From Marivirga tractuosa DSM 4126 (GTDB taxonomy: Bacteria > Bacteroidota > Bacteroidia > Cytophagales > Cyclobacteriaceae), in assembly GCF_000183425.1 (NCBI RefSeq), contig NC_014759.1:2325001-2389000 (forward strand): a stretch of 64,000 nt of DNA. Direction: 5' to 3'. Shown here in pieces: positions 7,859-30,172 of this stretch (position 1 is the first letter of the stretch; each line of letters starts with the position of its first letter). Below the pieces are notes generated by a model. The model did no database searches, had not been told where the DNA came from, and saw only the letters and a list, made by a program, of their open reading frames with translations. Made by a program: the position numbers and the translations under genes.

Positions 7859-7878
7859 TTATCTTCAATAGAGTTCAA

Positions 7879-8517
7879 ATGAAACTAGTTCTGTTAATAA
7901 CCTTACTTATACCTCTGCACTTAAAAGCACAGTATGATTTTGAGCCTGATAGTATTAATCAGTTTAGAGCGAGTAAGTTAGGTCAACCTAACACAGATAG
8001 TATCAAATTCGAATTTAGACTTTGGAATAGCGGCACACATTTTTCAATATTTTCTCAGTTAACTTTAAACAAAACCGACAAATGGAACTATCGAACTGGA
8101 TTTGAAAATCATGATGGGGAATTCGTTTTCTTTGAAAATAATCCTGAAATCAATGTTAAGAAGATTTGGACTACCCTAGATTCGCTTGGAATTAGAAACT
8201 TGCCAAACCAATTTGATATCACAGCAAGTTTTGAAAAGAATGGATATGTTCATAAGCTATCAATTGAACAATTCGAGAAAATGATTGGAACAGATGGGTC
8301 TGCAATAACAATTGAGTTATTTAATGAGGGAAATTTCAGGACATATTCCTACATTAATCCCCTTTCTTTATCGGAGTCCTTTAAGAATTCGAAAGATAAA
8401 TGGATAGCACCCGAACATCATGCAATTGCAGAAATTGTCTATGTGGTTAACAGCAGGCTAAAAACTTTTGATGATTTCAATCAATATCTAGTTGACCAAA
8501 GAGATAAAAGAAGATAA
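7879..8517 (+). CDS. Cassette 1: secreted protein of unknown function
   Basis: Protein of 212 aa with a clear signal peptide (hydrophobic residues 2-14, LKAQ cleavage region), so it is probably periplasmic or surface-exposed. The mature part is mixed polar and aromatic, with no recognised domain. The ATG at 7879 is 20 nt into the cassette. The stop codon (8515-8517) lies inside the box that opens the cassette's attC, so gene and recombination site overlap by 8 nt. No promoter is obvious; readthrough from the upstream recombinase gene is possible. Confidence 0.65.
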   Translation: MKLVLLITLLIPLHLKAQYDFEPDSINQFRASKLGQPNTDSIKFEFRLWNSGTHFSIFSQLTLNKTDKWNYRTGFENHDGEFVFFENNPEINVKKIWTTLDSLGIRNLPNQFDITASFEKNGYVHKLSIEQFEKMIGTDGSAITIELFNEGNFRTYSYINPLSLSESFKNSKDKWIAPEHHAIAEIVYVVNSRLKTFDDFNQYLVDQRDKRR

Positions 8518-8699
8518 CACTCTGTATAAATCATGGCTGGTTAGTGCTTAACGAAACTTTGGCTCTACGTAGAAAGCCCGGCAATCCGCAGGATTGACTT
8601 ATTTGTGAAAATTAATTTAATAAGCCAATACTGCAGATTGCCTCGGTAATTAACTGAAAATTTTATACTTTTAATCAGCCACGAATTTATACAGTGGCG
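8510..8699 (+). other. attC-like site of cassette 1 (family I)
   Basis: Opens with GAAGATAAC, the exact reverse complement of the cassette start GTTATCTTC at 7858-7866, and ends ..GTGGCG before TTGGGC. The arms contain TATAAATCATGGCTG and CAGCCACGAATTTATAC. Same family as the sites at 15089, 15896, 21333 and 28516. Confidence 0.8.
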
Positions 8700-8716
8700 T
8701 TGGGCACAATAAACGC

Positions 8717-8750
8717 TACTCATAGTCTGTAGACTTATAGTCTTCTAAAC
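8717..8750 (+). promoter_or_regulatory. C-box-like operator of the restriction-modification controller
   Basis: The stretch ATAGTCTGTAGACTTATAG, followed by a further TCT, contains AGTCT/AGACT symmetry and a second ATAGTC half-site. It lies 8-40 nt upstream of the controller gene. This is the layout of C-boxes bound by controller proteins of type II restriction-modification systems (paired AGTC/GACT half-sites). Binding is inferred. Confidence 0.6.
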
Positions 8751-8757
8751 TTGATCT

Positions 8758-9003
8758 TTGAGAAAAAAAGATTTGTCACCTGAAGAAAAGTTTGGAGCAA
8801 CATTAAAAGCAATAAGGCTTTCAAAAGGGCTTTCGCAAGAAGAATTAGCATTTAGTGCTAATCTCCATAGAACTTATGTTGGAAGTGTAGAAAGAGGCGA
8901 ACGAAATGTATCAATTCGAAACATTTTTGTCTTATGCGAAGCTCTCGATATAAAGCCAAGTGATTTTTTCAGGGAAATCGAAAAAATCAAAGGCTCAAAA
9001 TGA
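8758..9003 (+). CDS. Cassette 2: XRE-family controller (C) protein
   Basis: Helix-turn-helix protein of 81 aa that closely fits controller (C) proteins of restriction-modification systems. LSKGLSQEELAFSANLHRTY covers the HTH, and YVGSVERGERNVSIRNIF is the signature segment after it. C proteins bind their own C-box and delay restriction-enzyme expression until methylation is complete. The start is TTG at 8758; no ATG is available in frame. The stop overlaps the next gene's ATG (ATGA), so the nuclease is translationally coupled. A C-box-like operator lies just upstream. Confidence 0.85.
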   Translation: MRKKDLSPEEKFGATLKAIRLSKGLSQEELAFSANLHRTYVGSVERGERNVSIRNIFVLCEALDIKPSDFFREIEKIKGSK

Positions 9004-9677
9004 AATATTGCGGTAAATCAATTCCTAGTAGGTCAAAATATGACAAAATCCAACCAAGAAAATGTCACCTTCCCGAAAACCATAAAGGAAAATGTGAAGA
9101 ATTTCCATTTCTAAAAGACTTAACGAAATCACATAAGAGAGTCTCAGACAAAATAAAAAGGGACTCCACTATGACCACAGGTGCTGCTTGGAAAAGTGAT
9201 GATGCAGGTCCCAACAGAATCCTTAGATGGGTAATGCTCTTAAATGATGAAGAGCTTCTCAAATATGGAATTGACATTAGTGCTTTAAAACCTCAAGTTG
9301 TTTCTAAAATCAAAGAAAAGGGTGCTGATTATGATTCTTGTATACAAGTAGCCATCAAATTAACATGGCTTGCTTATCAAATGCCAGGTGCTCCAGATTG
9401 CAGTCAAGCCATCAAAGAATATTTGATAGAACATTTTGGGGAGTTGAAAAATGAAACTGTATGTTCAATATGCCTTGATAACTTGCCATTTGATCTATTT
9501 CATTCTGCACAAAGAGGAAAAGCTAACATAGAAACTTGTCACTTAAACCCAAGAATTCACAATTCGGAAAATGTTGGATTTGCCCACAGAGAATGCAATA
9601 TTGCACAAGGAAACAAAACACTCGAAGAATTTTATGAGTGGATAGCAGGTATTCTTGATCGAGCCAATAAATCCTGA
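9000..9677 (+). CDS. Cassette 2: HNH-type nuclease, probable restriction endonuclease
   Basis: Protein of 225 aa. Its C-terminal third holds a zinc-finger HNH nuclease core: CSICLDNL (CxxC) near residue 154, then ETCHLNPRIHNSENVGFAHRECN with His/Asn and a second Cys, then IAQGNKTL. The N-terminal part has CGKSIPSR and PRKCHLPENHKGKCEE, a possible second metal-binding cluster, and TTGAAWKSDD. It overlaps the controller gene by 4 nt and ends exactly where the convergent methyltransferase ends (9677/9678). Context makes it the restriction enzyme of this cassette; specificity is unknown. It could also be a nicking or homing-type HNH enzyme, but the C-protein coupling argues for restriction. Confidence 0.75.
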   Translation: MKYCGKSIPSRSKYDKIQPRKCHLPENHKGKCEEFPFLKDLTKSHKRVSDKIKRDSTMTTGAAWKSDDAGPNRILRWVMLLNDEELLKYGIDISALKPQVVSKIKEKGADYDSCIQVAIKLTWLAYQMPGAPDCSQAIKEYLIEHFGELKNETVCSICLDNLPFDLFHSAQRGKANIETCHLNPRIHNSENVGFAHRECNIAQGNKTLEEFYEWIAGILDRANKS

Positions 9678-11540
9678 TTAATCTATTTCATCAAATGTGA
9701 AATTGTGAAGCTTTTGAAGGAGCCTATTTCTTTCAATTAGAGTTTGCTTAAACTCATTAATTCTTTCATTCCACTGCTGGTTTTTTAATGGAACAGGTAG
9801 TACAAGCTCGTTTAATCTATTCCCTACACTACCAAGCGTGGATTGAATAAAGATCAACCTTTTTATTTCATCAATAACTTCCTTTTGATTTAGTAAGTAT
9901 AACAGTTCAAAAGCATTAAGGTAATTGTTATCAAGGGTTCGTATTATTTTTAGATGACTTTGTACAACACATTTCGTCATTCCGTTTAAGATCATTGATG
10001 TTTTTCCAATTCTAAACCTACCATCTGCAACCATTAATATGTCAAATTCCTCAATTCGTTGAAGTTTCCTATATTTTTGATAAACCTCTTCACTTACTGA
10101 TTTAGTCGGATCATAATTGATTTCAAGGTTTATTATATCTGATGTTCTGACGAATGGAATCTGACCAGTACCGTATGCTTCTGAACCTACTTCGTTTCCC
10201 TTTTTAATAACAAGTTTTTTCTGGTCTACTAACTCCTTAATACTGATGTGCCCGGCTATTTCAAATTCATATGATTTATTCAGTTGATCGCGGCTTATGC
10301 AATATCTAGGTACTAAATAATAAGGATCTTGAACTGTCGCGTGTTTCCAGATTTGATTATCATCATTAAAAGAATTTTCTCCAATAAGAGTAAAATCGTC
10401 ATCAATTTTTTTCCCAGAGTTGTCCAGTTGGCGACCTCTTTTATCATGTCCGCAAGTCTCTGCAATTGCAACTTTAAATTTTGTAGAAGTATTAGAAGAC
10501 TTCTCGAAAAAGAGAATATTGGTTTTAACGTCTGTGCTAGGTTGAAATAATGTTCGGGGGCAATCAATCATACCCAATATTTTTCCATTGTTTCTTATAT
10601 AGTCCCATACATACCCTAAACTTTTATTTCCAAAAATCCCTTCTGGAAGAACAATCCCACACTTACCTCCTTTTTTCAGAAGCTTAAAACATAATTCAAG
10701 GAACAGAAGCTGAGGTGATTGCTCCTTTAGAATTTGACTAGTCTTTATCCACTGACTTTCCGTTTTTGAAAACATCCAGCTATGACCAAAATCGTATTGC
10801 TTCAAAATCTTCTTCTCTTTAACACCGATTTTTGCACCAAATGGTGGATTGGTAACAACCAAATCAATTTGACCCAATAGCTTTTTAAGTTTATCATTTT
10901 CTATGTCTAAGGAGTTCGAATTGATGACCTCAAAATTTGATTTTGAATAGATTTCCAAAATGGCATTTGCTGTATTGGCAAGAAAATCATCTTTCTCAAT
11001 TCCGATTAACCTTCCATTAAAACTAATATTCTTGGAAATCTGCGTGATACTTTCAATTAAAAATCCTGCGGTACCGCATGCTGGGTCACAAATTGTATGA
11101 TTTGCCTTTGGGCTCAATAATTTTACCATTGAACTTACAACTGATTTTGGAGTAAAGAACTGACCTTTATCCCCTCGTAAGTTTGGCCCAACCAGTGTTT
11201 GAAATGCGTCTCCAATAATATGTGCTGGAGAATTAGATATATCTATTTCTTGAAATTTATTCAAAGCATATAAAACGCTTATGTCATCAAGTTGAAATGA
11301 GCCGAAATGATCCTTTATATTGGGGTGCTGCTTGATTAAGCTCTCAAGGATTTTAGAAGGACTAACCTTTGTACCTCCACTATTTTCCGACAAACAATAC
11401 AGTAGTATTTTGCTTAAATCCTTAATCAAATCCTCGGCTCTACTAATGTTGCCGTTTGAATATAAGTGGTAATAAACATCTTTAAAAACTCTTAAATGCT
11501 CATCCTTACTTGTCACTGGAAATGCTAAATCTGCCTGCAT
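9678..11540 (-). CDS. Cassette 2: N6-adenine DNA methyltransferase with C-terminal target-recognition domain
   Basis: HsdM-like gamma-class methyltransferase of 620 aa. Residues 1-110 are the helical N-terminal domain. SAM-binding motif I DPACGTAGFLIES is near residue 149, and the catalytic NPPF is in VVTNPPFGAKIG near residue 230. From about residue 430 it continues into an HsdS-like target-recognition domain (QIPFVRTSDI, DILMVADGRFRIGK, GSVGNRLNELVLPVPL) and a final helix, so modification and specificity are fused in one chain. It is transcribed against the controller and nuclease genes, convergently and with no gap. Its own promoter must lie in 11541-11593. It should protect host DNA from the HNH enzyme. 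Confidence 0.85.
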   Translation of the reverse strand: MQADLAFPVTSKDEHLRVFKDVYYHLYSNGNISRAEDLIKDLSKILLYCLSENSGGTKVSPSKILESLIKQHPNIKDHFGSFQLDDISVLYALNKFQEIDISNSPAHIIGDAFQTLVGPNLRGDKGQFFTPKSVVSSMVKLLSPKANHTICDPACGTAGFLIESITQISKNISFNGRLIGIEKDDFLANTANAILEIYSKSNFEVINSNSLDIENDKLKKLLGQIDLVVTNPPFGAKIGVKEKKILKQYDFGHSWMFSKTESQWIKTSQILKEQSPQLLFLELCFKLLKKGGKCGIVLPEGIFGNKSLGYVWDYIRNNGKILGMIDCPRTLFQPSTDVKTNILFFEKSSNTSTKFKVAIAETCGHDKRGRQLDNSGKKIDDDFTLIGENSFNDDNQIWKHATVQDPYYLVPRYCISRDQLNKSYEFEIAGHISIKELVDQKKLVIKKGNEVGSEAYGTGQIPFVRTSDIINLEINYDPTKSVSEEVYQKYRKLQRIEEFDILMVADGRFRIGKTSMILNGMTKCVVQSHLKIIRTLDNNYLNAFELLYLLNQKEVIDEIKRLIFIQSTLGSVGNRLNELVLPVPLKNQQWNERINEFKQTLIERNRLLQKLHNFTFDEID

Positions 11541-11593
11541 AATTAGAATACTTTAAGTATCGTTTCACATCATGACAAAGATAAAAAAAATAC

Positions 11594-11709
11594 TGTGCCC
11601 AACAAATGATATGAACGCATGCCTTAATCTGCTATCTTGTAAGTCATGTGCAAATCCGATACTTTAGAGGAAATTTGATAAGTATACAGGCACGCGTCAT
11701 ATCTGGCCG
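11594..11709 (+). other. attC-like site of cassette 2
   Basis: Opens with TGTGCCCAAC, the exact complement of the cassette start GTTGGGCACA at 8699. The arms GATATGAACGCATGCC and GGCACGCGTCATATC pair with one extra A in the 5' arm. It ends GGCCG before TTGTGGGC. At 116 bp it is the shortest intact site here. Confidence 0.8.
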
Positions 11710-11754
11710 TTGTGGGCAATTGAAGACACGATACTGCAAACATAAAATTACATC

Positions 11755-12849
11755 ATGAAAAAACTGATTTTTATAATTGTGTTAATAATAAATTCAGGAT
11801 TATTACTCGCTACAGAACAAGAACCTGATTTTGTCCACTACAACGGAAAAAAATTGACCCTATCAACAGGATGGGGACACCCTTCTCCGCTTGAGACTTA
11901 TTATTCTCAAAATAATATTGAATATCCTTTTACAATGTTGCATACAGCCAATTATCGTGGACATGTAGCCATTTGGGAGATTTCCGATGATAAATTATTC
12001 TTGAATGAAATACAAATCGAAAAAGCAAAATATAAACCTGAGAAATTTGATGTAAAATCTCAATCAGATTCTTTATCGTCTAAAGATAAAGTATTCGCTG
12101 ATTGGTTTACTGGTGTTATTATTGGAGAAGAACGAAGTAAGAAAAACTATTGGGAAGTTGAAAAGTCCTATTATTTCTATGTCAAGTATGGTAAAGTAGT
12201 TGATACACAAGAGTTGACAGAAAAAGATTTTAAGCAAATTGAAAAAATTTCAGATAGAGATACTTCGGACCATGATTTAATGGCAAAATATTCAATGCTA
12301 TTTCTGAACAATAATTATATCTCATACTACTTTCGGATACATGGAAATGACACGATAAAATTTGATACTAAAGGTGGATATTTAAGTGGCAACTCTGATT
12401 TGAGTCCTATTTTGTCATATTTCGATAACGACCACCTGAAATGGCCATACAATTGGGAAAACTTTGAGAAAAGTGGAGCACCTTTCTGTACATGGATTAT
12501 TAACAACGATAGTTTAATGCTTTCAGATATAGAGTTACACACCGGTACAGGTTTTTACTCAATTGATAAATTCTCGGTTGATTTAGTGGATATTTTCCCA
12601 AACAAATTAAATGACAATAAAGTATTTGGTGATTGGATTTCTGGGATTTTTGTTGTTCGTCATGGTAAAAATGAGGAAGATGAAAATTTACCAGGATATT
12701 TCGAATTTAAAGTATCCGAACTAACATATTTGAGACTGAAAGATGGAATTGTATTAGAGAAATATACTGTTCCTGCAGATTTTGACTTTAAAAATATACC
12801 TGCAAATACTGATGAAGGATTAAAGAAAATATTAGAGGAACTAAAGTAA
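11755..12849 (+). CDS. Cassette 3: secreted protein with internal duplication
   Basis: Protein of 364 aa with a signal peptide (residues 1-19, ending LLATEQ). Two halves resemble each other: residues about 60-165 contain KVFADWFTGVIIGEE and YYFYVKYGKVVDTQELTEKDF, and residues about 235-350 contain KVFGDWISGIFVVRHG and TYLRLKDGIVLEKYTVPADF. This suggests an ancient tandem duplication of a domain of about 110 aa. Aromatic and acidic residues dominate and no catalytic motif is seen. It is the only gene in its cassette. Function unknown; probably periplasmic or surface. Confidence 0.6.
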   Translation: MKKLIFIIVLIINSGLLLATEQEPDFVHYNGKKLTLSTGWGHPSPLETYYSQNNIEYPFTMLHTANYRGHVAIWEISDDKLFLNEIQIEKAKYKPEKFDVKSQSDSLSSKDKVFADWFTGVIIGEERSKKNYWEVEKSYYFYVKYGKVVDTQELTEKDFKQIEKISDRDTSDHDLMAKYSMLFLNNNYISYYFRIHGNDTIKFDTKGGYLSGNSDLSPILSYFDNDHLKWPYNWENFEKSGAPFCTWIINNDSLMLSDIELHTGTGFYSIDKFSVDLVDIFPNKLNDNKVFGDWISGIFVVRHGKNEEDENLPGYFEFKVSELTYLRLKDGIVLEKYTVPADFDFKNIPANTDEGLKKILEELK

Positions 12850-12980
12850 CAACTGCCCACAACAATGTATATACAAAATAGGCGAAATAGTAGTAAATTC
12901 AACGGTTGCAGCCCGCTTCAACTTCATCTCGGTTTGATAAGTTTGAAGCCCGCAATCGCCTACTTTGCATATACTAAACG
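12850..12980 (+). other. attC-like site of cassette 3
   Basis: CAACTGCCCACAAC pairs with the cassette start GTTGTGGGCAATTG (13 of 14). The arms TGTATATACAAAATAGGCG and CGCCTACTTTGCATATACT close the palindrome. The site ends AAACG before TTAGTAGC. Confidence 0.78.
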
Positions 12981-13005
12981 TTAGTAGCAATTCCAGAACT
13001 TGCAA

Positions 13006-13524
13006 ATGAAATTCTTAACGGACAGATATATTAGATCCTTATTTTTGATCGGGTTGGGTATTTACTTTATCGTTGAACACGAGATACGGGAAAGACCGCA
13101 ATCAACGGAAGACCTAATCGACCTTCATGGGACAATTACTGATTATTCATTTAAGGATAATACAGGTTGGAGAGGAAACGGACGTCAGTATTATATATAT
13201 TTGGACGGTTATCCAACTAAATTTCAAGTAAAAGCAGACTATCTAAGATTTTTTAATAAACAACAATTTGAGTACAACTTTAAACGTGATAGTCGAGTAA
13301 AACTGAGCATCCCTAGGTATCAAGAGAGCTTAGTAGGAACAGACGAGAATGTTTTTTTGACATCAATTTCAGTTAACGGATTTGAATTTCTTTCAAAGGA
13401 TGAGACAATTAGTAGAGAAATTACCATGGCAACTTCAAATTCGGATTACATTTTGGGTGGCGTTTCTATTGTAATAGGAATATTGATTTTCCTATTCTAT
13501 GACAAAATTAAAAAAAGCTACTAA
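13006..13524 (+). CDS. Cassette 4: membrane protein with two TM segments (DUF3592-like layout)
   Basis: Protein of 172 aa counted from the ATG at 13006 (a TTG six nt earlier is also in frame). A hydrophobic helix at residues 8-24 and a second near the C-terminus (YILGGVSIVIGILIFLFY) bracket a soluble domain of about 110 residues containing GTITDYSFKDNTG and a WRGNGRQYYIYLDG strand pair. This layout resembles DUF3592-type envelope proteins, but the match is only by topology. The TAA stop lies inside the attC opening box GCTACTAAC. Function unknown. Confidence 0.55.
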   Translation: MKFLTDRYIRSLFLIGLGIYFIVEHEIRERPQSTEDLIDLHGTITDYSFKDNTGWRGNGRQYYIYLDGYPTKFQVKADYLRFFNKQQFEYNFKRDSRVKLSIPRYQESLVGTDENVFLTSISVNGFEFLSKDETISREITMATSNSDYILGGVSIVIGILIFLFYDKIKKSY

Positions 13525-13674
13525 CATCACCTATGAATGAATGGGGTTTCATCAGTCAGGAAATTTTGGCGGTACTTGGAAAGTCAGCCACAATGTGTAA
13601 ATTTATTAATTGCTGTGGCTGTGTGCAGATGGCAAGCTTAGTAGTTTCAAAGCCCCACTCATCATAGCTAGGCG
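13517..13674 (+). other. attC-like site of cassette 4 (family II)
   Basis: Opens with GCTACTAAC, the exact complement of the start GTTAGTAGC at 12980. The arms CTATGAATGAATGGGG and CCCCACTCATCATAG pair with one extra A in the 5' arm. Nearly identical to the site at 22480 and related to the one at 20630. Confidence 0.82.
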
Positions 13675-13723
13675 TTGGCAATAATATAAAAGTAGAAAAT
13701 CTCAATCAAAGTATTATCAAAAA

Positions 13724-14458
13724 ATGAAAAAATTCACCTTAATTCTATTGACTTTAATTACACTATCTTGCAGTGACGATGCTACCAATATCGAGCCTTC
13801 TACTATTTATGAAGGCAATTATGAAATCCGTTCAGAAACCGATTTAATATCTTTCTCGGAATCAGGATATACAGAAATTAATGGCAACCTTGTTATTAAC
13901 TACACCGAAGATATAGAAGACCTGAAAGGCTTAGAAACATTAAAAAAAGTCAATGGTATTCTCATAAGATACAACGATGAGTTAAAATCACTTGAAGGTC
14001 TTGAGGGCCTATCTCAAATTGAGTTTTTCACTCTTTCATATAATTTAAACCTTAATTCATTAAAAGGTCTTGATAATTTGACAAAAATAACGTCAAGCAT
14101 TATCATCGAGCAAAATGCAGATTTAAAAAATTTAAACGGCCTTGATCAACTAACAGAAGTAGGTGGCGATTTTTTTATTTCACATAATGACAGATTAGAA
14201 AATTTCAATGGTATAGAAAGTTTACAGAATGTCTCAAGGTTTTTAGTTTTAAATAATATCAACTTGATAGATTTGACTGGACTTAGAAATATTGTTTCCA
14301 CTAATCGACTTCAATTTGACTCAAACGACTTATTAAATGATTTTTGTATTTTAAGTAATTTTTTAGAACAAAATCCAGACCCTGAATTATTTGGAGCAAG
14401 ACAAAATGATTATAACCCAACAGTCGAGGATATTTTGAATGGAAACTGCACTGAATAA
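13724..14458 (+). CDS. Cassette 5: lipoprotein with receptor-L/leucine-rich-like repeats
   Basis: Lipoprotein of 244 aa: the signal peptide ends at a lipobox-type LSC followed by SDD. The body consists of about five repeats of 22-24 residues built on LKGLETL..VNG, LEGLEGLSQIEFF, LKGLDNLTKIT and LNGLDQLTEVGG, the pattern of receptor-L or leucine-rich solenoid domains common in Bacteroidota surface proteins. Such folds usually bind proteins or glycans. The ATG at 13724 lies about 50 nt inside the cassette. Exported and membrane-anchored by prediction; ligand unknown. Confidence 0.65.
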   Translation: MKKFTLILLTLITLSCSDDATNIEPSTIYEGNYEIRSETDLISFSESGYTEINGNLVINYTEDIEDLKGLETLKKVNGILIRYNDELKSLEGLEGLSQIEFFTLSYNLNLNSLKGLDNLTKITSSIIIEQNADLKNLNGLDQLTEVGGDFFISHNDRLENFNGIESLQNVSRFLVLNNINLIDLTGLRNIVSTNRLQFDSNDLLNDFCILSNFLEQNPDPELFGARQNDYNPTVEDILNGNCTE

Positions 14459-14464
14459 AATACT

Positions 14465-14592
14465 ATTGCCAACAATGTATAACCGCAATTACGGCGGATT
14501 CGACTACGTCCGAATCCACTCGGAATTGCAAAGTCAGTGCTAAACCGAAAATTAACGCATATTAACCCGTAACTGACGGTTATACGAGACCG
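14465..14592 (+). other. attC-like site of cassette 5
   Basis: Opens with ATTGCCAAC, the complement of the start GTTGGCAAT at 13674. The arms GTATAACCGCAATTACGG and CCGTAACTGACGGTTATAC pair with one extra base in the 3' arm. It ends GACCG before TTGTAGG. Confidence 0.78.
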
Positions 14593-14771
14593 TTGTAGGT
14601 AATCCTGTATATAGCCAAGCGATTTACTTTGAAAGTTACAGTTAGAGCCGAGACATTTAGAAAATTCATGAAAATCAGTTGAATGCAAATTATTGATATT
14701 CCAAACCTTATTCAGAATTATCACAGTAAGACAGAGTCAATTATGTCTATAGCATAAGATTTCCAAACACT

Positions 14772-15086
14772 ATGGGTTCACTTGATAAAAGATATTATGA
14801 GATTGGTCGAAAATATGAGAAAGTATCTGAGAATTACAGAAGACCGTATATTTTGGGTGTCGATATCAATGAGACTGAAAAACCATTTATAATGGTAGCA
14901 GGAGACCATCATTCAGACATTGGTGTAAAAGTAGTCTCGTTGGAGGAATTATTTTCAGGTAAATTGGATACTCATATAGCAAAAGCAGGTTGTATAGATT
15001 TTGTAAATAGATTAAAGAATTCTATTTCAGCAGGAGAATCATTCCCGCCAAGATTTTTAAAGAATTTAGTCAGTGTTGAAGAATAA
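14772..15086 (+). CDS. Cassette 6: small soluble protein of unknown function
   Basis: Protein of 104 aa with no signal peptide or TM helix. It is charged and carries a HHSDIGVK segment and a single Cys, with no recognised domain. The gene begins about 180 nt into the cassette, one of the longer leaders here, so the cassette may carry its own promoter in 14593-14771; no clear -7/-33 pair was found. The stop comes just before the attC opening box. The coding call rests on single-gene cassette context and plausible composition. Confidence 0.5.
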   Translation: MGSLDKRYYEIGRKYEKVSENYRRPYILGVDINETEKPFIMVAGDHHSDIGVKVVSLEELFSGKLDTHIAKAGCIDFVNRLKNSISAGESFPPRFLKNLVSVEE

Positions 15087-15088
15087 AC

Positions 15089-15281
15089 TACCTACAACAT
15101 TCTGTCATAAATCATGGCTGTTCAGTAGGTTATTGTAGCTTCGGCTCTTTGTAGATAGCCCGTCAATCCGCATGATTGACTTATTAGTCAAAATTAATTT
15201 AATAAGCCAATCCTGCGGATTGCCTCGGTAGTTAACTGAAAATTTTATACTTTTAATCAGCCACGAATTTATACAGTGGCG
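15089..15281 (+). other. attC-like site of cassette 6 (family I)
   Basis: TACCTACAAC is the exact 10-nt complement of the start GTTGTAGGTA at 14592. The arms CTGTCATAAATCATGGCTG and CAGCCACGAATTTATACAG pair with an extra C in the 5' arm. It ends GTGGCG before TTGTGC. Confidence 0.83.
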
Positions 15282-15301
15282 TTGTGCTTAATTACTTCAC
15301 T

Positions 15302-22701: not shown

Positions 22702-24561
22702 ATGCGAACAAAGGATTTGGATATAAGTAAGTTTACAAGCCTAACTGACGTTCACAGTTATTTGGATGAAAACGCATCAAAACTGAGCAGTAATTGGGAT
22801 ATCACAGATCTTTTCGTCAAATATCGAGATCAGACTGTAATCAGTAAGGAAAAACAAAAAGCTCAATGGGAATTGGAGTGCTTCCTTTTTGAATTTAGAG
22901 GCTTAGAGTTAATGGTATTCTCGTATTCTTTCAATGAGGAAAAAGATGAATTTCCAAAATATCCAAACTTGGATGAATTCCAGTCTGAAGCTTTTGAATA
23001 CATCAAAAAACGTGCACAAGAAGCTAAGAATGCTTTACTTATCGCTAGGTACAACCACATTCTTTGGAAGGGGCCAAAAGGAATTAAGAATAAGAAATAT
23101 GCTCAAGTTGCAATAGTCAACTATTTAAATGCTGTTAGGAATTTCATCGAATTATCCAAGCAAAAACCTGATGGGAAGTATCTCTATCAAGCAGTTACAA
23201 AATATGAACTGACTTGTAGCCTTATTTCTGAATGTAAGGAGGAAGTCAAATCACTTAAGTTGCTAACCTCCGAACTTTTGAATGACTCTGAAGTCTCATT
23301 TTGGGCGAAGCATTCGATATTGGATGATATGATCAAACATCCCAAGATATTCAAAGCTGAAGATTTTAAAGGGTCTCTTAATTTATTTAAAAAAGAACTA
23401 GATGGAGCAAATAAACGGACTGACCATTTTCTACTGGTCAATAATTATTTACCAACAGCATTAAGAATTGCTTCGAAAACAAAATCTGACAATAAGTATT
23501 GGTATGATCAAATTGGTGAGTGCTATGTGCAGATGGCAAATGATGAAGAAAGTCCTGACCGATTATGGATAAAACAAGATAATTATGCCAATGCAATTGA
23601 TGCTTTCGGGAATTCAGGAAACATTCAAAGGCGAAAGGAAATAGAACAAGCCTATTATGAACTAAAACCAAATGTAAAACTCCCTTCTCATAGAATAGAG
23701 GTTAAGTTATCAGAAGAAGAATCAAAGCTTTTTAAAGCATATGAGGAGGAAACTAGGCAAAAAATAGAATGGCTTCTGACCTTAGATCCATCTAAAATTT
23801 ACATGTACTTGAGCAGTAGTGTCTATTTTCCAAAGTTTGCCACCATCAAAGAAGCTGTTAGCAATCAGAAGGAAAAATGGATGGACATGTCAAGAACCAT
23901 TGAATTTGATTCAAACAAGAACATACGAAGTTTTCAAGGAGGAGGATCGGATAAAATGTATCAAGAATACACCCTTAGAATTCAATTAAGTGTTCTACCA
24001 TTCTTGAGACAGATTTTTGCAAAAGGAATCAAAGAACGAGTTTTAACATTTGAAAATTATTTGGAGTTTTTGAAAAATTCTTGGTTAGGGAAACCTTATA
24101 CGGAAATTGACCTTGGCGGAGATTTGGTTGAAACCAATTGGATAGGTCTTATAGCCCCTTCTGTAGTCGAATACTTTGTTCAAAGTGAAAGCTCATTAAA
24201 TGCAAAATACTACAAACCGAATTATGTTCTATGCATAGATAGTTTGACCTTGAAGTTTGAAGGATTATTAAGAGACTTCAGCAGTAGGTTGAACATTTCA
24301 ACAAGCACTAGAGGAAAGAAAGGAATGCAAGAAAACTATGCACATGACATTTTAGGAAATGAGATTATAAAAAAGTACTTCGATGAAGATGACAGACTAC
24401 TTTTCGAATACCTATTTCTAAATGAAGGGCTAAACATTAGGAATAATGTGGCGCATTGTTTTTACAACGAAAAGGAATACGACTTGAACAAGATCAATCT
24501 TTTACTTGTGACTTTATTGAGGATTTCCAAATATGATTTTACGTTAAATAAAAATGACTAA
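22702..24561 (+). CDS. Cassette 13: large helical protein, DUF4209-like
   Basis: Soluble protein of 619 aa, the largest single-gene cassette product here. Most of it is predicted helical. The C-terminus carries LNEGLNIRNNVAHCFYNEKEYD, an RNxxAH motif preceded by a Leu-rich helix, as in DUF4209 proteins and HEPN-type domains. DUF4209 genes turn up in defence islands, but no mechanism is established to my knowledge. No signal peptide, TM helix or ATPase motif. The gene starts about 60 nt into the cassette. The family call rests on the C-terminal motif only. Confidence 0.6.
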   Translation: MRTKDLDISKFTSLTDVHSYLDENASKLSSNWDITDLFVKYRDQTVISKEKQKAQWELECFLFEFRGLELMVFSYSFNEEKDEFPKYPNLDEFQSEAFEYIKKRAQEAKNALLIARYNHILWKGPKGIKNKKYAQVAIVNYLNAVRNFIELSKQKPDGKYLYQAVTKYELTCSLISECKEEVKSLKLLTSELLNDSEVSFWAKHSILDDMIKHPKIFKAEDFKGSLNLFKKELDGANKRTDHFLLVNNYLPTALRIASKTKSDNKYWYDQIGECYVQMANDEESPDRLWIKQDNYANAIDAFGNSGNIQRRKEIEQAYYELKPNVKLPSHRIEVKLSEEESKLFKAYEEETRQKIEWLLTLDPSKIYMYLSSSVYFPKFATIKEAVSNQKEKWMDMSRTIEFDSNKNIRSFQGGGSDKMYQEYTLRIQLSVLPFLRQIFAKGIKERVLTFENYLEFLKNSWLGKPYTEIDLGGDLVETNWIGLIAPSVVEYFVQSESSLNAKYYKPNYVLCIDSLTLKFEGLLRDFSSRLNISTSTRGKKGMQENYAHDILGNEIIKKYFDEDDRLLFEYLFLNEGLNIRNNVAHCFYNEKEYDLNKINLLLVTLLRISKYDFTLNKND

Positions 24562-24686
24562 ACCTAACACTAAATATAGATCATTGGGCAAGTAGTGCTA
24601 AAGTTGAAAATGATTACATTTAAGAAAATATGTAGGGAATTGGTAGTTTTGAGCCTTGAATTCCCCAACGCCCCATATTCTTAACG
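24559..24686 (+). other. attC-like site of cassette 13
   Basis: TAAACCTAAC is the exact 10-nt complement of the start GTTAGGTTTA at 22638. The arms TAAATATAGATCATTGGGC and GCCCCATATTCTTAA pair loosely. It ends AACG before TTAGGAGC. Confidence 0.75.
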
Positions 24687-24699
24687 TTAGGAGCAACAA

Positions 24700-25179
24700 A
24701 TGGTAGGAGAGTATTATATCGATCAAAATAAAGTTCGTGACTATTACAAAAAAGGATTAATCTCATTTTCACTGATTCACGTCTATGCATCATTATTTTT
24801 AATTTCTGTTTTCTTTATCCAAATTCGGTCATTTACACTGATTGGTGCAGGTATAGTGATCGCTGTATCATTAGTACGAATTGGAGTATGGATGGCAAGA
24901 ACGGGCGAGAAAACTTATGAAAAGACACAAATCATTATCGAAAATAATAGAATTATTAGAAAAGGAGAAGGCCTTATTACTGTAAGAATTCCGTTTTCCC
25001 AAATAGGCAGAATTAAATCTCATAGAAATGCAATAGTGGTTGTAAGAAAGGGAGTATTACCAGTAATACAGTATTATTTTGATAGATTTTGTTTTATATC
25101 CAATCAGGATATTTTATATATACCTAGTATGTTAGAGAACTTTAATGAAATAAAAAAACATTTAAAGTATCAAAAATGA
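24700..25179 (+). CDS. Cassette 14, gene a: membrane protein with PH-like domain
   Basis: Protein of 159 aa with two adjacent membrane helices (residues 21-41 and 45-66) followed by a soluble domain: TQIIIENNRIIRKGEGLITVRIPFSQIGRIKSH fits a bacterial PH-like domain of the kind found in small two-TM proteins. It starts 13 nt inside the cassette, so an external promoter is needed. The stop overlaps the next gene (ATGA), so the two are co-translated. Function unknown. Confidence 0.58.
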   Translation: MVGEYYIDQNKVRDYYKKGLISFSLIHVYASLFLISVFFIQIRSFTLIGAGIVIAVSLVRIGVWMARTGEKTYEKTQIIIENNRIIRKGEGLITVRIPFSQIGRIKSHRNAIVVVRKGVLPVIQYYFDRFCFISNQDILYIPSMLENFNEIKKHLKYQK

Positions 25180-25388
25180 TTGAAAGAATATACGCATTTA
25201 TACCACTAGTAATTTCGCTAAGTTTCCTTTATTCTGCTTTAAGATTGAGTAGAATCATTAAACATCCCGATAAAGAAAGGCAGGCTGATTATGAGGAATA
25301 CCATCAATCAAATAATAATTCATTAAGAATAATTGGAAGTGTTTTAGGTGGAATTATTTTCTTTTTATACTTTCTAATGAGTTACTAG
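25176..25388 (+). CDS. Cassette 14, gene b: small membrane protein
   Basis: Protein of 70 aa with a TM helix at each end (IPLVISLSFLYSALRL and VLGGIIFFLYFLMSY) and a charged loop between (IIKHPDKERQADYEEYHQ). Translationally coupled to the PH-like gene by an ATGA overlap, so the products may form a complex. No family recognised. Confidence 0.5.
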   Translation: MIERIYAFIPLVISLSFLYSALRLSRIIKHPDKERQADYEEYHQSNNNSLRIIGSVLGGIIFFLYFLMSY

Positions 25389-25392
25389 AACA

Positions 25393-25632
25393 GCTCCTAA
25401 CAAGGTATAAAACCCATTTGCTAACCACCTTGTAGCAAATTAACTGCTAAATAGCCCGTAATTTATGCTTGCTTTTCATAGCTGGCAACCAAGGATATTG
25501 CTTTACTCAAGTATGGTGCTTAATTATTCTAAGCTTTGGCAATTAATGAAGTGTATCAGTTTGCGGAGAAAGCATAAATTACTACTTTCAGTATTTCATA
25601 GCCTAGTATAGCAAACGGGTTTTATACAGGCG
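25393..25632 (+). other. attC-like site of cassette 14 (family III, 240 bp)
   Basis: GCTCCTAAC is the exact complement of the start GTTAGGAGC at 24686. The arms GTATAAAACCCATTTGC and GCAAACGGGTTTTATAC pair without a bulge. The inner stem pairs GTAATTTATGCTT with AAGCATAAATTAC. It ends AGGCG before TTAGCGG. Confidence 0.82.
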
Positions 25633-25775
25633 TTAGCGGTAATTCCACATATAGGTAAGCCATCGACTTTGCGAGCTAACGGTAGAGCATAGAAATGGAA
25701 AGAATTAATAAAAATATAATGATTGTAAAATAATCGATTTTCAATACATTAATTAAATCCTAGTCAAAATTAGAG

Positions 25776-26188
25776 ATGATCAAAAATTTTTTAACCTTTT
25801 TTATATAAAACTTTACTCAACCTTAAAGCAAAAAATACCGAGTGCCTTAGGAGTTGAAGGCTCAGCCTCAGCATTTATATCATCATTACTTTTCTTCTTC
25901 AATTTTATAGTAATCTATTATGTTGTATTCTTCCTGATGTTCAATTTTAATCTTTCCTCCATAAACTGGCTCCCTTTATTAACCTATTTCATAGTTCCAG
26001 TATCATATTTCACAATCATAATTTTCGGTTTCTTTTATTTCAAAGAGCATCATCAGAAATTATACTCTCAGTATAAGAACCAAAAAATTAGCATTAGCTT
26101 TCCCCCTGTTTTATATATAATCTACTGTTTAGCTACCTTGGGGGTATTCATGCTCTCAACTTATTACTTCTTTTCATCTTTGAAATAA
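25776..26188 (+). pseudogene. Cassette 15: membrane-protein gene broken by a frameshift
   Basis: An ATG at 25776 opens MIKNFLTFF and stops at 25806, but the neighbouring frame continues directly as YIKLYSTLKQKIPSALG… through a hydrophobic segment (SSLLFFFNFIVIYYVVFF) into MFNFNLSS at 25937 and on to 26188. Joining the frames across the T-rich runs at about 25785-25802 gives one protein of about 137 aa with three TM helices, so a one-base indel in a T6 run probably broke it. The intact downstream part (25937-26188, 83 aa) could still be translated. The cassette's attC is also truncated. A sequencing error cannot be excluded. Confidence 0.6.
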
Positions 26189-26193
26189 AAAAA

Positions 26194-26377
26194 ACCGCCA
26201 ACATTCCATAAAACCTATTTTCTCAGCAACTTATAGTAAACATGCTGTGAATAAGCCAGCAATTTATTCTTTCACTTTGTAACAACTGTTCTGTTTTCAA
26301 GGGGACTCTACGGTAATCAATAGTGAGCCTTGGTAGAAACCGCATAAATTGCTTAGTTTAGCTTTTCATAGCTTACA
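26194..26377 (+). other. Truncated attC-like site of cassette 15
   Basis: ACCGCCAAC pairs with the start GTTAGCGGT at 25632 (one G:T). It has the 5' arm ATAAAACCTATTTTCTC, but the matching 3' arm (as in the site at 27624, GGTTTTATGTAGGCG) is missing: GCTTACA runs straight into TTAGCGG. Cassettes 15 and 16 can therefore no longer separate normally. Confidence 0.65.
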
Positions 26378-26462
26378 TTAGCGGTAATGTGAGTGCAAAA
26401 TGGAAGTAAATTTAAACATTTAAGAAAAATCGTTTTCAATAATTTAGACTTTGAAAATACCG

Positions 26463-26840
26463 ATGAATATGACAAATATTAATTACGTAGACATCATGAT
26501 AATACTTTGCTGTATTTCTATTTTTGTTCTAGCTATTGTGAAAACTATTAAAATATCAAAGACTGATAAACCTGATACTGTTGGACTATTTAGTATATGG
26601 TTATTTGGATTATTTGCTTTCTTGCTTGGTCTGATTGAACAGACACTCAATATGATATCAGTATTTGATGCTGTGGCAGCTTCTGGCGACATAAATCCAT
26701 CAATAATTGCTGAAGGTGCTAGCGATTCTACAAAAGGAGCGGTTACAGGAATTTGGATTCTGATAGTCTCTCTAATCCTTTGGGGTACAGTTAAAGGATT
26801 AAAAAATTGGAAAATTAGAAAGTCAAAGTCAGCACACTAG
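26463..26840 (+). CDS. Cassette 16: MotA/TolQ-like small membrane protein of unknown function
   Basis: Protein of 125 aa from the ATG at 26463. Three hydrophobic helices (residues 8-24, 38-58 and 92-112) frame a loop with ASGDINPSIIAEGASDSTKGAVTG. The Pro/Gly/Ser-rich stretch between helices 2 and 3 resembles the corresponding loop of small MotA/TolQ/ExbB-type proteins in Bacteroidota, but the similarity is weak. Function unknown. It starts 85 nt into the cassette. Confidence 0.5.
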   Translation: MNMTNINYVDIMIILCCISIFVLAIVKTIKISKTDKPDTVGLFSIWLFGLFAFLLGLIEQTLNMISVFDAVAASGDINPSIIAEGASDSTKGAVTGIWILIVSLILWGTVKGLKNWKIRKSKSAH

Positions 26841-26880
26841 AGAAACTCACAGTTAAGACCAAGATTTATATAATAGAAAA

Positions 26881-27091
26881 TACCGCTAACATTACCTAAA
26901 AATGCATTTGCTCACTGCTTCTAGCAAATTGAGCTGGTAATTCTCCACAAAGCCAAACATTTATTTTCATTTATAGAGAAGAGAGATAAACTGCTCCGCT
27001 CTTTTTACTGCTCCGCAATTGTAGTTATGGTTTGGCTTTGCTACTTTAGTGCTTCGTCAGCGAAGTGTAGCAAACGCATTTTAGCTAGGCG
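26881..27091 (+). other. attC-like site of cassette 16 (family IV, 211 bp)
   Basis: TACCGCTAAC is the complement of the cassette start TTAGCGGTA at 26378. The arms CTAAAAATGCATTTGC and GCAAACGCATTTTAG pair with an extra A in the 5' arm. It ends TAGGCG before TTACCTG. A decayed relative lies near 31815. Confidence 0.8.
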
Positions 27092-27117
27092 TTACCTGTA
27101 ATGAACGTTAAATTCAA

Positions 27118-27642
27118 ATGATAATCAATAGAAAGAAGGGTAAAAGTATAGCCATGTTTATTTTTTTGGTTCCTGTTTTACTGATGTTCTTTTTCGGGGG
27201 CATTTATGCAGTTTTTGAAGGAGAAATAGCTATAGGCATTATTTTCATTGTAATAACAGTAGTTGGTCTTTCAGGTGTTCCAAAATCTATGATGAAAATC
27301 ATTTCAGCTAATCCAGAATTTGAAATAACGGATAATGATTTATTTATTTATGACAATCCTCAATACGAATGCATTTCTATCCAAGACATGGTAGAATGCA
27401 ACATTTATAGTGGTTTATACAACGATTATCTATTAGGAATTTCTTTAAAAAAAGATTCGCAGATAAGGAGTAATTTAAAAGAATGGAAGAAAACGTTTTT
27501 AAATATTCCAGAGGAAAAATCTAAAATAGTATTCATTAATTTAGAGCATTCAGATATCAAACCTACCGAATTGGCTAATATTCTAAATAAGAAAATCTCA
27601 AAAATTAACTCTCATTCTAAAAATACAGGTAACAACACATAA
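27118..27642 (+). CDS. Cassette 17: two-TM protein with PH-like domain (STM3941-like layout)
   Basis: Protein of 174 aa. Two membrane helices (residues 10-31 and 38-54) are followed by a soluble domain with FEITDNDLFIYDNPQYECISIQD and VFINLEHSDIKPTELANILN, the layout of STM3941-type PH-like proteins. The last six codons and stop run through the attC opening box TACAGGTAAC, so the C-terminus (NTGNNT) is partly dictated by the recombination site. Function unknown. Confidence 0.55.
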   Translation: MIINRKKGKSIAMFIFLVPVLLMFFFGGIYAVFEGEIAIGIIFIVITVVGLSGVPKSMMKIISANPEFEITDNDLFIYDNPQYECISIQDMVECNIYSGLYNDYLLGISLKKDSQIRSNLKEWKKTFLNIPEEKSKIVFINLEHSDIKPTELANILNKKISKINSHSKNTGNNT

Positions 27643-27832
27643 AACCAATTTGCTCACCACCTTGTAGCAAAGTCAGTAGTAAAAGCCAGCAATTTATGCT
27701 TGCACTTTGTGGCAGCATTCCTGAGCTAACAGGTACTCGTCACTAATCAATAGGGAGCCTTGGTGAAAATAGCATAAATTGCTTAGTTTAGCTTTTCATA
27801 GCTTACACTGGCAAACAGGTTTTATGTAGGCG
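27624..27832 (+). other. attC-like site of cassette 17 (family III variant)
   Basis: TACAGGTAAC is the exact 10-nt complement of the start GTTACCTGTA at 27091. The arms ACATAAAACCAATTTGC and GCAAACAGGTTTTATGT pair without a bulge. It ends AGGCG before TTGTGTG. Confidence 0.83.
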
Positions 27833-27965
27833 TTGTGTGTAATTTTCGGTACAATTAGGATTGGTTTACAAAGCCAATTCAAGAAGTTTTTACTCATACA
27901 AAGAAGTAAAAGATTACAGCTACCTGTGATTTATATTCTTTAAAAAATATTGAAAGATATATAAA

Positions 27966-28499
27966 ATGAAAAAGCTACTCAAAATAGTATTTATCATAAC
28001 GAGTATATTCATTGTATTAAAAATCTTTTTTCAAATATCATTTTCATATGACTTAATAAATGAAATCATACTCACTGCATTTGGACTATCTGGGGCAGTT
28101 TATTTGACAATATTATTTCCTGAAACTTGGGTTAAAATATTATTTGTGTGCGTCATTGCAGGAGTAGTTATAATTGGCTGGTATAGTAATTTGATCTTCG
28201 GGTATGAATCTCAAATACATAAAAAATGGAACTTTGACAATTATAATATTCAGCTGGAAAACCGAATTCAAATAGCTGGACCAGGTTGCTTTTGGTTTTT
28301 AGTAAATAAGAAAATCCTGGGTGGCGTATTGGAGAGAAGAATTGAAACTAGAAAATACCAAGCAGTACTACCTGATCCTCCCCAAATATTTGAGTTTGCA
28401 ACCAAAAATGATCCACTGAAAGTCGAATGCTGTAAAAACAATTTAATAATATTACCTGACAGTATGTCTTTGGAAGAAAAGTTAGATTACATCAAATAA
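27966..28499 (+). CDS. Cassette 18: membrane protein with C-terminal soluble domain
   Basis: Protein of 177 aa with three hydrophobic helices in the first 80 residues (IVFIITSIFIVLKIFF; ILTAFGLSGAVYLTILF; ILFVCVIAGVVIIGWY) and a soluble C-terminal part of about 95 residues containing GPGCFWFLVNKKILGG. Four Cys in the protein have no clear metal-binding spacing. The gene starts about 130 nt into the cassette, leaving room for a promoter. No family recognised. Confidence 0.52.
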   Translation: MKKLLKIVFIITSIFIVLKIFFQISFSYDLINEIILTAFGLSGAVYLTILFPETWVKILFVCVIAGVVIIGWYSNLIFGYESQIHKKWNFDNYNIQLENRIQIAGPGCFWFLVNKKILGGVLERRIETRKYQAVLPDPPQIFEFATKNDPLKVECCKNNLIILPDSMSLEEKLDYIK

Positions 28500-28515
28500 A
28501 TGAATAATTGAAACC

Positions 28516-28706
28516 ACACACAACATTCTGTATGAAATCATGGCTGGACGGTAGGTAATTGACACTTTGGCTCTTCGTAGGAAGCCCGTCAACCCGCAGG
28601 ATTGACTTACTGTGTTGAAATAATTTAGTAAGCAATCCTGCGGATTGCCTAGTTAGTAACTTGAAACTTTTGTACATTTAAATCAGCCACGCTTCATACA
28701 GTGTCG
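28516..28706 (+). other. attC-like site of cassette 18 (family I variant)
   Basis: ACACACAAC is the complement of the start GTTGTGTGT at 27832. The arms CTGTATGAAATCATGGCTG and CAGCCACGCTTCATACAG pair. Note the compensated change (ATGAA/TTCAT) relative to other family I sites. It ends GTGTCG before TTAGGC. Confidence 0.8.
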
Positions 28707-28753
28707 TTAGGCATAATAAAGCTTTATATTTCTAATTATTTAACTTTGTATCT

Positions 28754-29002
28754 ATGACATTTATGAGTCACATGAAGAAGGAATCAACCAGAAAAGCCTT
28801 CGATAAACAATCAAAGGTTAATGGTACTAGTAGATATGAAGGTTATGATCCTAGCAAAGTAAAAACGGATTTTGAAGAACTAAAAAGACTTAGAAATAAA
28901 AAGAAAAACAGAACCTGGAATCTTTTAAAGGCTATATTTTTAAGCTTAGCTTTTATTTTAGTTATATTTATGCTCCTCAACTTATTTATTGGCATACTTT
29001 AA
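28754..29002 (+). CDS. Cassette 19: small single-TM protein
   Basis: Protein of 82 aa (Met also at residues 4 and 7). A charged, Lys-rich N-terminal half (KKESTRKAFDKQSKVNG, FEELKRLRNKKKNRTW) is followed by one C-terminal membrane helix (AIFLSLAFILVIFMLLNLF). This tail-anchored layout is common among small cassette products. Function unknown. Confidence 0.5.
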   Translation: MTFMSHMKKESTRKAFDKQSKVNGTSRYEGYDPSKVKTDFEELKRLRNKKKNRTWNLLKAIFLSLAFILVIFMLLNLFIGIL

Positions 29003-29029
29003 ATACGAGTATCAGAACATATACAAACA

Positions 29030-29268
29030 ATGCCTAACAATGAACTGTGCTAAAATCCAACCTTTCGTAGTGAATTTTTCTTTTGGACAGCCCGTAATTT
29101 ATGCTTGCTTTTCATAGCTAGCAACCAAAGATAGTGCTTTGGTCAAGTGTAGGGCTTAATTATTCTAAGCTTTTGCAATTAATGAAGGTCATCAGTTTGT
29201 GGAGAAAGCATAAATTACTACTTTCAGTATTTCATAGCCTAGCATAGCAAACGGGGTTTATACAGGCG
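29030..29268 (+). other. attC-like site of cassette 19 (family III, 239 bp)
   Basis: ATGCCTAAC is the exact complement of the start GTTAGGCAT at 28706. The inner part matches the sites at 16534 and 25393 (GTAATTTATGCTT / AAGCATAAATTAC), but the outer 5' arm has diverged (GAACTGTGCTAAAATCC). It ends AGGCG before TTGTGGG. Confidence 0.72.
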
Positions 29269-29324
29269 TTGTGGGTAATAGTTTGTGCCGTTCAGATTGG
29301 CATTAATTTGTATATTTGTTTCGA

Positions 29325-29900
29325 ATGAAAAAACCATACGTCATAGCTGGATGCAATGGTGCAGGTAAAACAACTGCTTCTTATACAATTCTGCCAGAAA
29401 TACTTGATTGCAAGGAGTTTGTCAATGCAGATGAAATTGCTAAGGGCATTTCACCTTTTCAGCCAGAAAAAGTGGGGATAGAAGCAGGTAGAATGATGTT
29501 GAAAAGAATTAAAAGCCTCTTGGAAGCAGGTGAAAGTTTCGCATTCGAAACTACATTATCGACCAGAAGCTATGTTGCATTTATTGAGAAAGCTAAGCAA
29601 TTAGGTTATCAAGTAACCTGTTTGTTCTTTCTGCTGGACTCGGAAGAATTGGCTATATCCAGAGTAGCTACTAGAGTAAAAGAAGGAGGGCATCATATTC
29701 CAGAGGAAGTGATAAGAAGAAGATATAAAAGTGGATTAAAGAACTTCTTTAATCTATTTCTTCCAAGAGTGGACAATTGGCTATTTGTAAATAACTCTGG
29801 AGATAGCTATGAAATTATTGCAGAAGGGTCGATGAATGAAATTACAGTCAACAATGTTTTGCAATGGAAGGAGTTAAAAGAAAAATATTATGGGAACTAA
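29325..29900 (+). CDS. Cassette 20, gene a: Zeta-toxin-family kinase
   Basis: Zeta-like P-loop kinase of 191 aa from the ATG at 29325. The Walker A motif GCNGAGKTTAS is near residue 8, followed by FVNADEIAKGISPF and the catalytic region SFAFETTLSTRSY; RVKEGGHHIPEEVIRRRYKSGL is the Arg-rich LID. Zeta toxins phosphorylate UDP-N-acetylglucosamine and block wall synthesis when not neutralised. The next gene overlaps by 11 nt and is probably the antitoxin. A TATATTTG element at 29311-29318, a fair -7 match, suggests that this cassette has its own promoter, as toxin-antitoxin cassettes usually do. Confidence 0.85.
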   Translation: MKKPYVIAGCNGAGKTTASYTILPEILDCKEFVNADEIAKGISPFQPEKVGIEAGRMMLKRIKSLLEAGESFAFETTLSTRSYVAFIEKAKQLGYQVTCLFFLLDSEELAISRVATRVKEGGHHIPEEVIRRRYKSGLKNFFNLFLPRVDNWLFVNNSGDSYEIIAEGSMNEITVNNVLQWKELKEKYYGN

Positions 29901-30081
29901 AGAGCAATTAAAAGAAGAACGCGACAAAATTGTAAAAGGACTTGAAGAGACTTACAGAAAGCTAGTTCGCTTCAAAAGAGAAAAGAATAGTCCGATGATT
30001 GTATTGAGAGAAGGGAAAATTACTGAAGTAGACCCGAACGATATACTACCCACAACATTGTATAAGCGTAATGCGGGTTAA
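29890..30081 (+). CDS. Cassette 20, gene b: probable Zeta antitoxin with attC-encoded tail
   Basis: Protein of 63 aa beginning MGTKEQLKEERDKIVKGLEETYRKL, a charged coiled helix, then REKNSPMIVLREGKITEV. It overlaps the Zeta gene by 11 nt, matching the small downstream partners of Zeta toxins in Bacteroidota. The last residues (LPTTLYKRNAG) are translated from the attC opening box and 5' arm, so the site supplies the stop codon. Neutralisation of the toxin is inferred from context. Confidence 0.6.
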   Translation: MGTKEQLKEERDKIVKGLEETYRKLVRFKREKNSPMIVLREGKITEVDPNDILPTTLYKRNAG

Positions 30082-30172
30082 ACAGTAAAATTGAGCATTT
30101 TTGCTACTAAGAAACTTAGCGCTAGGCGAAAAATGAATCGCTCTAAAAGCCGCGCTTCGCTTATACTAATCG
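30044..30172 (+). other. attC-like site of cassette 20, right end of the regular array
   Basis: TACTACCCACAAC pairs with the start GTTGTGGGTAATA (12 of 13). The arms GTATAAGCG and CGCTTATAC pair, flanked by TAATGCGGG and CCGCGCTT. It ends AATCG, then TGACA instead of TTGACA, so the junction has lost a T or is atypical. Confidence 0.7.

Follow-up and report, generated by a model that had tools for sequence, protein, structure and literature searches.

How can a long array of gene cassettes arise and change beside a tyrosine recombinase that does not carry the domain by which integron integrases are recognised? The question is posed by a locus in Marivirga tractuosa DSM 4126, a member of class Bacteroidia. 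The window, i.e., the whole stretch of DNA that was analysed, comprises 64,000 nucleotides of its 4.5-Mb genome (contig NC_014759.1, G000:C2:2325001-2389000), and positions are those of the window unless stated otherwise. We conclude that the stretch at 7858-30172 is very likely an integron-like gene-cassette array run by the adjoining recombinase, which has no IntI additional domain, with the folded bottom strand as the likely substrate. Judged by its anatomy and by the mobility seen in sequence comparisons, the locus appears to work like an integron; it is not one by the current definition, which in the excerpts of PMC9668308 and PMC9024848 requires an IntI with an additional domain.

The array is made up of 21 units in tandem, head to tail and each 283-3,010 bp long, with the first G|TT junction at 7858/7859. 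Units open at such a junction (in one case mutated to ATT) and close with an imperfect palindrome, which measures 122-248 bp at the sites scored by script and, by eye, approximately 50-60 bp in unit 10. The last site keeps its final G at 30172, with the former GTT now GTG, and a decayed continuation behind the array reaches approximately 31.9 kb. Most of the cargo has no Pfam match and most of it is co-oriented, the exceptions being the methylase of unit 2, the IS91-type pair of unit 11, and the minus-strand open reading frame (ORF) of unit 9. An earlier note on this DNA had placed an array of about 20 tandem units, ending in long imperfect palindromes, at 7859..30172, which proves right almost to the base. 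Its description of G/TT unit starts and of mostly uncharacterised cargo in one orientation also agrees with our count, as does its remark that some cores keep only GTT: the integron consensus GTTRRRY / RYYYAAC is not followed here, with 5/21 array cores fitting GTTRRRY. Absent from that note are the adjoining recombinase gene, the attI-like repeat and the decayed continuation.

The variable core behind GTT reappears inverted at the far end of its own unit, just ahead of the palindrome, and such an inverse core at a cassette's own end is a known mark of integron cassettes. Comparing the seven variable bases behind GTT with the inverted copy at the unit end, we found at least 6 of 7 matching in 20 of the 21 units (mean 6.5); non-own pairings of the array cores reached this level in 12/420 cases (mean 2.8), and none of 100,000 permutations equalled the observed total. 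Complementary ends that lie 0.1-3 kb apart are unexpected in stationary DNA and would be explained if the unit is at times circular, joined at G|TT. The signature thus goes with known integron cassettes: own ends also match at 6-7 of 7 positions in the five canonical IntI arrays of the phylum that were inspected.

Comparison with two congeners of the window's species (G004 and G003) points to units that move. Unit 4 (12981-13674, + strand; ORF 13000-13524) has a counterpart in the G004 array with 99.2% DNA identity over 718 bp, the recombinase regions being 76% identical as DNA, and unit 12 (20786-21524, +; ORF 20805-21329) has one in G003 with 90.6% identity over 745 bp (recombinase regions 80%). 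Base-level alignment shows that both matches begin and stop at G|TT on both sides, give or take shared junction bases, with unrelated neighbours. The palindromes adjoining the left end of unit 4 differ between the window and G004, so homologous recombination between palindromes does not explain this break. Behind the present array end, the segment 31174-31923 (+), with DUF433 and DUF5615 ORFs, is 94.5% identical to DNA inside a run of units in G006; it is a decayed former cassette.

At the other end of the array, an attI-like site (7827-7860, +) consists of an inverted repeat (7827-7835 / 7843-7851) followed by the first crossover GTT at 7858. It adjoins the recombinase, as attI does in canonical integrons (see also excerpts of PMC9024848). 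In G001 (locus L040), the flank and the attI-like DNA are shared with the window up to G|TT, and different DNA with a different first unit lies beyond; inverted repeat, core and differing first cassettes are as found at the entry point of cassettes beside an integrase. Cassette content, which the earlier note had proposed to compare between relatives, is accordingly not fixed among them (unit 4 in G004, unit 12 in G003, and the differing first unit in G001), and the recombinase system likely captures and shuffles genes.

For a wider view, we used the best 80 matches of a scan of named genomes (80 recombinase loci) and a second sample of 40 class-wide matches selected for contig room. An L-box-plus-core pattern occurs within 250 bp of the recombinase stop in 49/74 loci versus 4.7% of random upstream pieces, and in the second sample in 28/39 versus 7.7%; an attI-like inverted repeat with a score of at least 8 is present in 30/46 loci versus 3/138 random pieces. 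From 169 finder-picked units at 34 loci, we derived a site consensus with a core of GTT, A or G (98%), variable bases, A at +10 (97%) and mostly T, flanked by A after AAC (95%) and by C before GTT (96%), then a TAT-rich L box. Of these 169 cores, 16 fit GTTRRRY.

The recombinase itself (372 aa; 6695-7813, +) has an N-terminal domain of approximately 80 residues followed by core-binding and catalytic domains, and its domain matches are phage-integrase catalytic and SAM-like; the gene is read towards the array and stops 45 bp upstream of the first junction. Could this simply be an ordinary chromosomal integron, with canonical IntI, attI and attC, in an unusual host? We consider this unlikely, even though it would account for the array anatomy, the G|TT junctions and own-end matches like those of canonical arrays. 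The recombinase scores 187 bits with TIGR02249 (integron integrase), below the 265-bit cut-off. Its best NCBIfam match, at approximately 220 bits and thus at the cut-off of 220, is NF040815 (XerA_Arch), whose title, 'site-specific tyrosine recombinase/integron integrase', is the name of the model and not functional evidence. The best Foldseek match is XerA (5hxy), with IntI4 (2a3v) nearly tied; in the alignment to the solved IntI4, chain residues 179-246 are skipped opposite 25 query residues. Between two landmarks in the catalytic part, all 16 aligned family members have 77-78 residues, compared to 119 in 6/6 IntI, 82 and 84 in two Xer proteins of the same genome, and 82 in the IS91-type recombinase of unit 11; the IntI additional domain is absent in 16/16. 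In a 39-protein tree with 8 XerC/D-like proteins as outgroup, one long-branched (archaeal XerA was left out of the trees), 24 family members form one clade (94/88) and 5 IntI another (100/99), so that the recombinase family falls outside the IntI clade; two IS91-type recombinases stand beside IntI with moderate support (90/82). A quick 103-row tree keeps the family and IntI separate too (family 91, not starred). Of the earlier reading as a chromosomal integron, the cassette array, the G|TT junctions and the variable content therefore stand, while the standard type, with an IntI domain and a place in the IntI clade, does not.

Set beside the sedentary chromosomal integron driven by IntI (TIGR02249), the locus shares G|TT bounds, the inverse own-end core, palindromic attC, tandem genes of mostly unknown function and an attI adjoining the recombinase. 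It differs in that the recombinase lacks the additional domain and has an extra N-terminal one, in the direction of the gene, which points at the array (the canonical arrays inspected, five in all, sit 5' of intI), and in its box consensus and the bottom-strand bias of its stems. XerA/XerC/XerD share the two-domain core, the best models (NF040815 and 5hxy) and a loop of similar length (77-78 in the family, 82-84 in Xer), but the XerC/D-like proteins of the same genome belong to a separate clade, and the window recombinase sits by a cassette array. The IS91-type elements with a tyrosine recombinase are alike in that the unit 11 copy also has no IntI domain, and unlike in their long separate branch and, for the window copy, its position inside a unit. 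Excerpts of Smyshlyaev et al. (PMC8138268) describe an integron-like subgroup in which conservation of the IntI insertion is incomplete; the Marivirga-type family may have been counted there. By eye, a tryptophan-rich N-terminal motif stands in tandem copies in several of the recombinases of L110, L113, L123, L124, L127, and L130. For the N-terminal domain, the HARP / XPB damage-recognition fold, known from a structure-specific DNA-binding domain, is a candidate assignment.

A second alternative is that the palindromes are dispersed repeats between ordinary genes, exchanged by homologous recombination, with the recombinase as a bystander. The many similar palindrome copies would make homologous recombination possible, and one palindrome family does occur at four further places of the same genome outside the array. 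The earlier note had held that palindromes scattered singly outside arrays would reduce the units to such repeats. For this one family, three of the four copies belong to clusters (L144, L145, L146) in which 2-3 cassettes show the end signature of the array, and the fourth is a partial copy with no cassette detected. No recombinase of the family is listed at L144, L145, or L146; the clusters resemble CALIN clusters (a term found in excerpts of PMC9024848) in having no recombinase seen nearby, and differ from them in carrying this system's own sites. Stationary repeats would moreover give no reason for the own-end core match, nor for the break at G|TT in unit 4 despite differing left-end palindromes.

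The position of the units relative to the recombinase also argues against dispersed repeats. In the 80-locus set, linked units are found downstream of the recombinase in 22/35 loci with at least 3 kb of sequence and in 17/23 with 8 kb, and upstream, on either strand, in 0/77 (block shuffles 0/105). A contig end falls within 700 bp downstream of the recombinase in 33/80 loci and upstream in none, a pattern that assemblies broken at repeats would produce. The second sample has linked units in 13/27 loci with 3 kb, and the genome's own second copy and the stretches from relatives have them, in recombinase orientation, in 10/19; the nine others include four short stretches and L045, which has no recombinase. 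At the second platform of the same genome (L039, G000:C2:116264-136263), a 56% identical recombinase is followed by two detected cassettes. For comparison, IntI-driven arrays from other classes of the phylum have linked units, on either strand, in 8/14 loci. Taken with the clusters and the core match, we regard dispersed repeats as very improbable. In another genome (G009, L055), a broken remnant of a window-type recombinase lies beside a gene similar to window positions 53456-54855, with no array detected.

The palindromes also differ between their two strands. In folds computed with DNA energies, the bottom-strand stem is the more stable one in 83 of 90 non-redundant sites and the top-strand stem in 6, compared to 46/41 and 47/42 (bottom/top) for random pieces; whole hairpins give 69/19. 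In the second sample the split is 38/8 for 46 sites, with 19/4 among the 23 non-redundant sites that are new. The main cause is a left-arm A opposite a right-arm C, which is an A.C mismatch on the top strand and a T.G wobble on the bottom one: columns with A.C on top number 148 versus 46 of the reverse type, and site by site the balance favours the bottom strand in 64, the top strand in 12 and neither in 14. This suggests single-stranded recombination of folded sites on the bottom strand. That the palindromes are instead RNA hairpins, acting as terminators or stabilisers of cassette transcripts, is barely credible: strong inverted repeats do sit at gene ends, but wobble pairs of the bottom strand correspond to A.C mismatches on the sense strand, sense stems (folded as DNA) are the less stable ones in 83/90 sites, an Rfam scan returned nothing at the gathering cut-off, and the own-end match would be left unexplained.

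Several observations weigh against an array run by this recombinase through folded bottom strands. Canonical IntI sites run through the same script show no bottom bias (12/15 of 31; non-redundant 7/8 of 16), and such a bias therefore does not characterise integron sites at large. Strand choice at canonical attC is generally attributed to extrahelical bases. The bias may have another cause, such as avoidance of mRNA hairpins, and the sites behind it share ancestry and are not fully independent. The two core boxes of one array site pair no better than random (0/20 at 6/7). The finder signature is nearly symmetric, ringing on the opposite strand too in 20/35 loci, and for this reason the direction of the recombinase gene was used to orient the sites. 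In 25/74 and 11/39 loci the attI-like pattern escaped detection, and 13/35 roomy loci of the first sample and 14/27 of the second have no linked units, be it through decay, limits of the finder or another function of the recombinase. Finally, the additional domain that the window recombinase lacks is reported, in excerpts of PMC9668308, to be necessary for integron recombination.

On balance, we favour an integron-like array served by its neighbouring recombinase, for which the following reaction can be envisaged. The upstream tyrosine recombinase is predicted to insert and excise circular cassettes at the G|TT junctions. It would make the G|TT cuts itself, and its substrate would be the palindrome of each cassette in the form of a folded bottom strand, where stems are more stable, perhaps with its N-terminal domain helping to recognise the folded DNA; the reaction would then proceed in the absence of the additional domain on which known integron integrases depend. 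A bolder extension, which we offer tentatively and think somewhat doubtful, is that Bacteroidia possess a second kind of integron that separated long ago: a lineage that never had the IntI domain, in which an N-terminal structure-sensing module reads the folded bottom-strand attC and T.G wobbles set the choice of strand, present on chromosomes and plasmids in about one third of the class and unseen because searches require the IntI domain. If the system is active, the IntI domain is not needed for the recombination of hairpin cassettes, the family becomes a natural outgroup for the evolution of integrons from Xer-like enzymes, and a large pool of unknown cassette genes is opened up.

As far as our searches reach, a cassette system whose recombinase has no IntI domain is widespread in Bacteroidia and has been overlooked. 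The family is present at E 1e-100 or better in 123/395 sampled species of the class, some of them matched solely in the C-terminal two thirds of the recombinase. Canonical IntI exceeds the cut-off in 1/395 sampled Bacteroidia species; in a phylum-wide sample that includes other classes, it does so in 105/395. In surveys, the IntI domain is what defines an integron (excerpts of PMC9668308 and PMC2426708). Bacteroidota are named among the integron-bearing phyla in reviews (PMC8618304, in part), and excerpts of the IntegronFinder 2.0 paper (PMC9024848) give one complete integron in Bacteroidetes proper, that of Salinibacter ruber M1, besides those of Chlorobi and Ignavibacteriae. None of the titles and abstract openings listed describes a Bacteroidia cassette array whose recombinase is without the IntI domain, with preprints and most subscription journals outside this scope.

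The family also occurs on plasmids, with 97 plasmid records matching the recombinase, and five stretches were inspected. In the L255-L257 set, a Chryseobacterium plasmid has three linked units downstream of the recombinase, and, at relaxed settings only, a Rufibacter plasmid has one and a Pontibacter plasmid two, with short sites of 57-77 bp. Two Persicobacter plasmid stretches have no linked units, and none lie upstream of the recombinase in any of the five. An Acinetobacter plasmid recombinase is 53% identical over 62% of the query, and is named TnpF in one record from an uncultured bacterium. One contig labelled as a Rhodobacteraceae metagenome-assembled genome (MAG; L104) also carries a family member, together with a single linked cassette pair, through either transfer or misbinning.

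The remaining units lie on the + strand unless indicated. No Pfam match was obtained for the ORFs of unit 1 (7859-8699; ORF 7879-8517, palindrome at approximately 8509-8705), unit 3 (11710-12980; ORF 11755-12849), unit 6 (14593-15281; ORF 14772-15086), unit 7 (15282-16087; ORF 15284-15892), unit 8 (16088-16775; ORF 16103-16525), unit 10 (17059-18292; ORFs 17059-17859 and 17866-18231), the unit with the short palindrome, and unit 13 (21525-22638; ORF 21550-22476). The same holds for the 87-aa ORF on the minus strand of unit 9 (16776-17058, strand unassigned), which at 283 bp is mostly palindrome. Unit 5 (13675-14592) encodes a receptor L / LRR-like protein (13724-14458) and unit 14 (22639-24686) a DUF4209 protein (22702-24561). 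Unit 15 (24687-25632) has two ORFs (24700-25179 and 25176-25388), and single ORFs are found in unit 18 (27092-27832; ORF 27118-27642), unit 19 (27833-28706; ORF 27966-28499) and unit 20 (28707-29268; ORF 28754-29002). Unit 16 (25633-26377; ORF 25937-26188) is the sole unit with an own-end match below 6, at 5/7, and its neighbour, unit 17 (26378-27091; ORF 26451-26840), is the one whose start junction is mutated to ATT, with an own-end match of 7/7.

Two units stand out by their cargo. Unit 2 (8700-11709) contains an HTH regulator (8758-9003), a DraIII-like endonuclease (9000-9677) and an N6 methylase on the minus strand (9678-11540); together, these genes (8758-11540) form a restriction-modification set with the methylase reversed. 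Unit 11 (18293-20785, minus strand) encodes an IS91-family transposase (18530-19645, -) and a second tyrosine recombinase without the IntI domain (19642-20502, -), with ends matching 6/7, and looks like a transposon as cassette cargo. The array closes with unit 21 (29269-30172), which has a zeta-toxin-like ORF (29316-29900) and whose palindrome, the last one, ends in G before TGA, GTT being lost. Clusters of toxin-antitoxin genes are known from large chromosomal integrons, and here toxin-antitoxin-like genes (zeta toxin, HigB, and DUF433/DUF5615) are grouped at the far end of the array, at 29316-31807.

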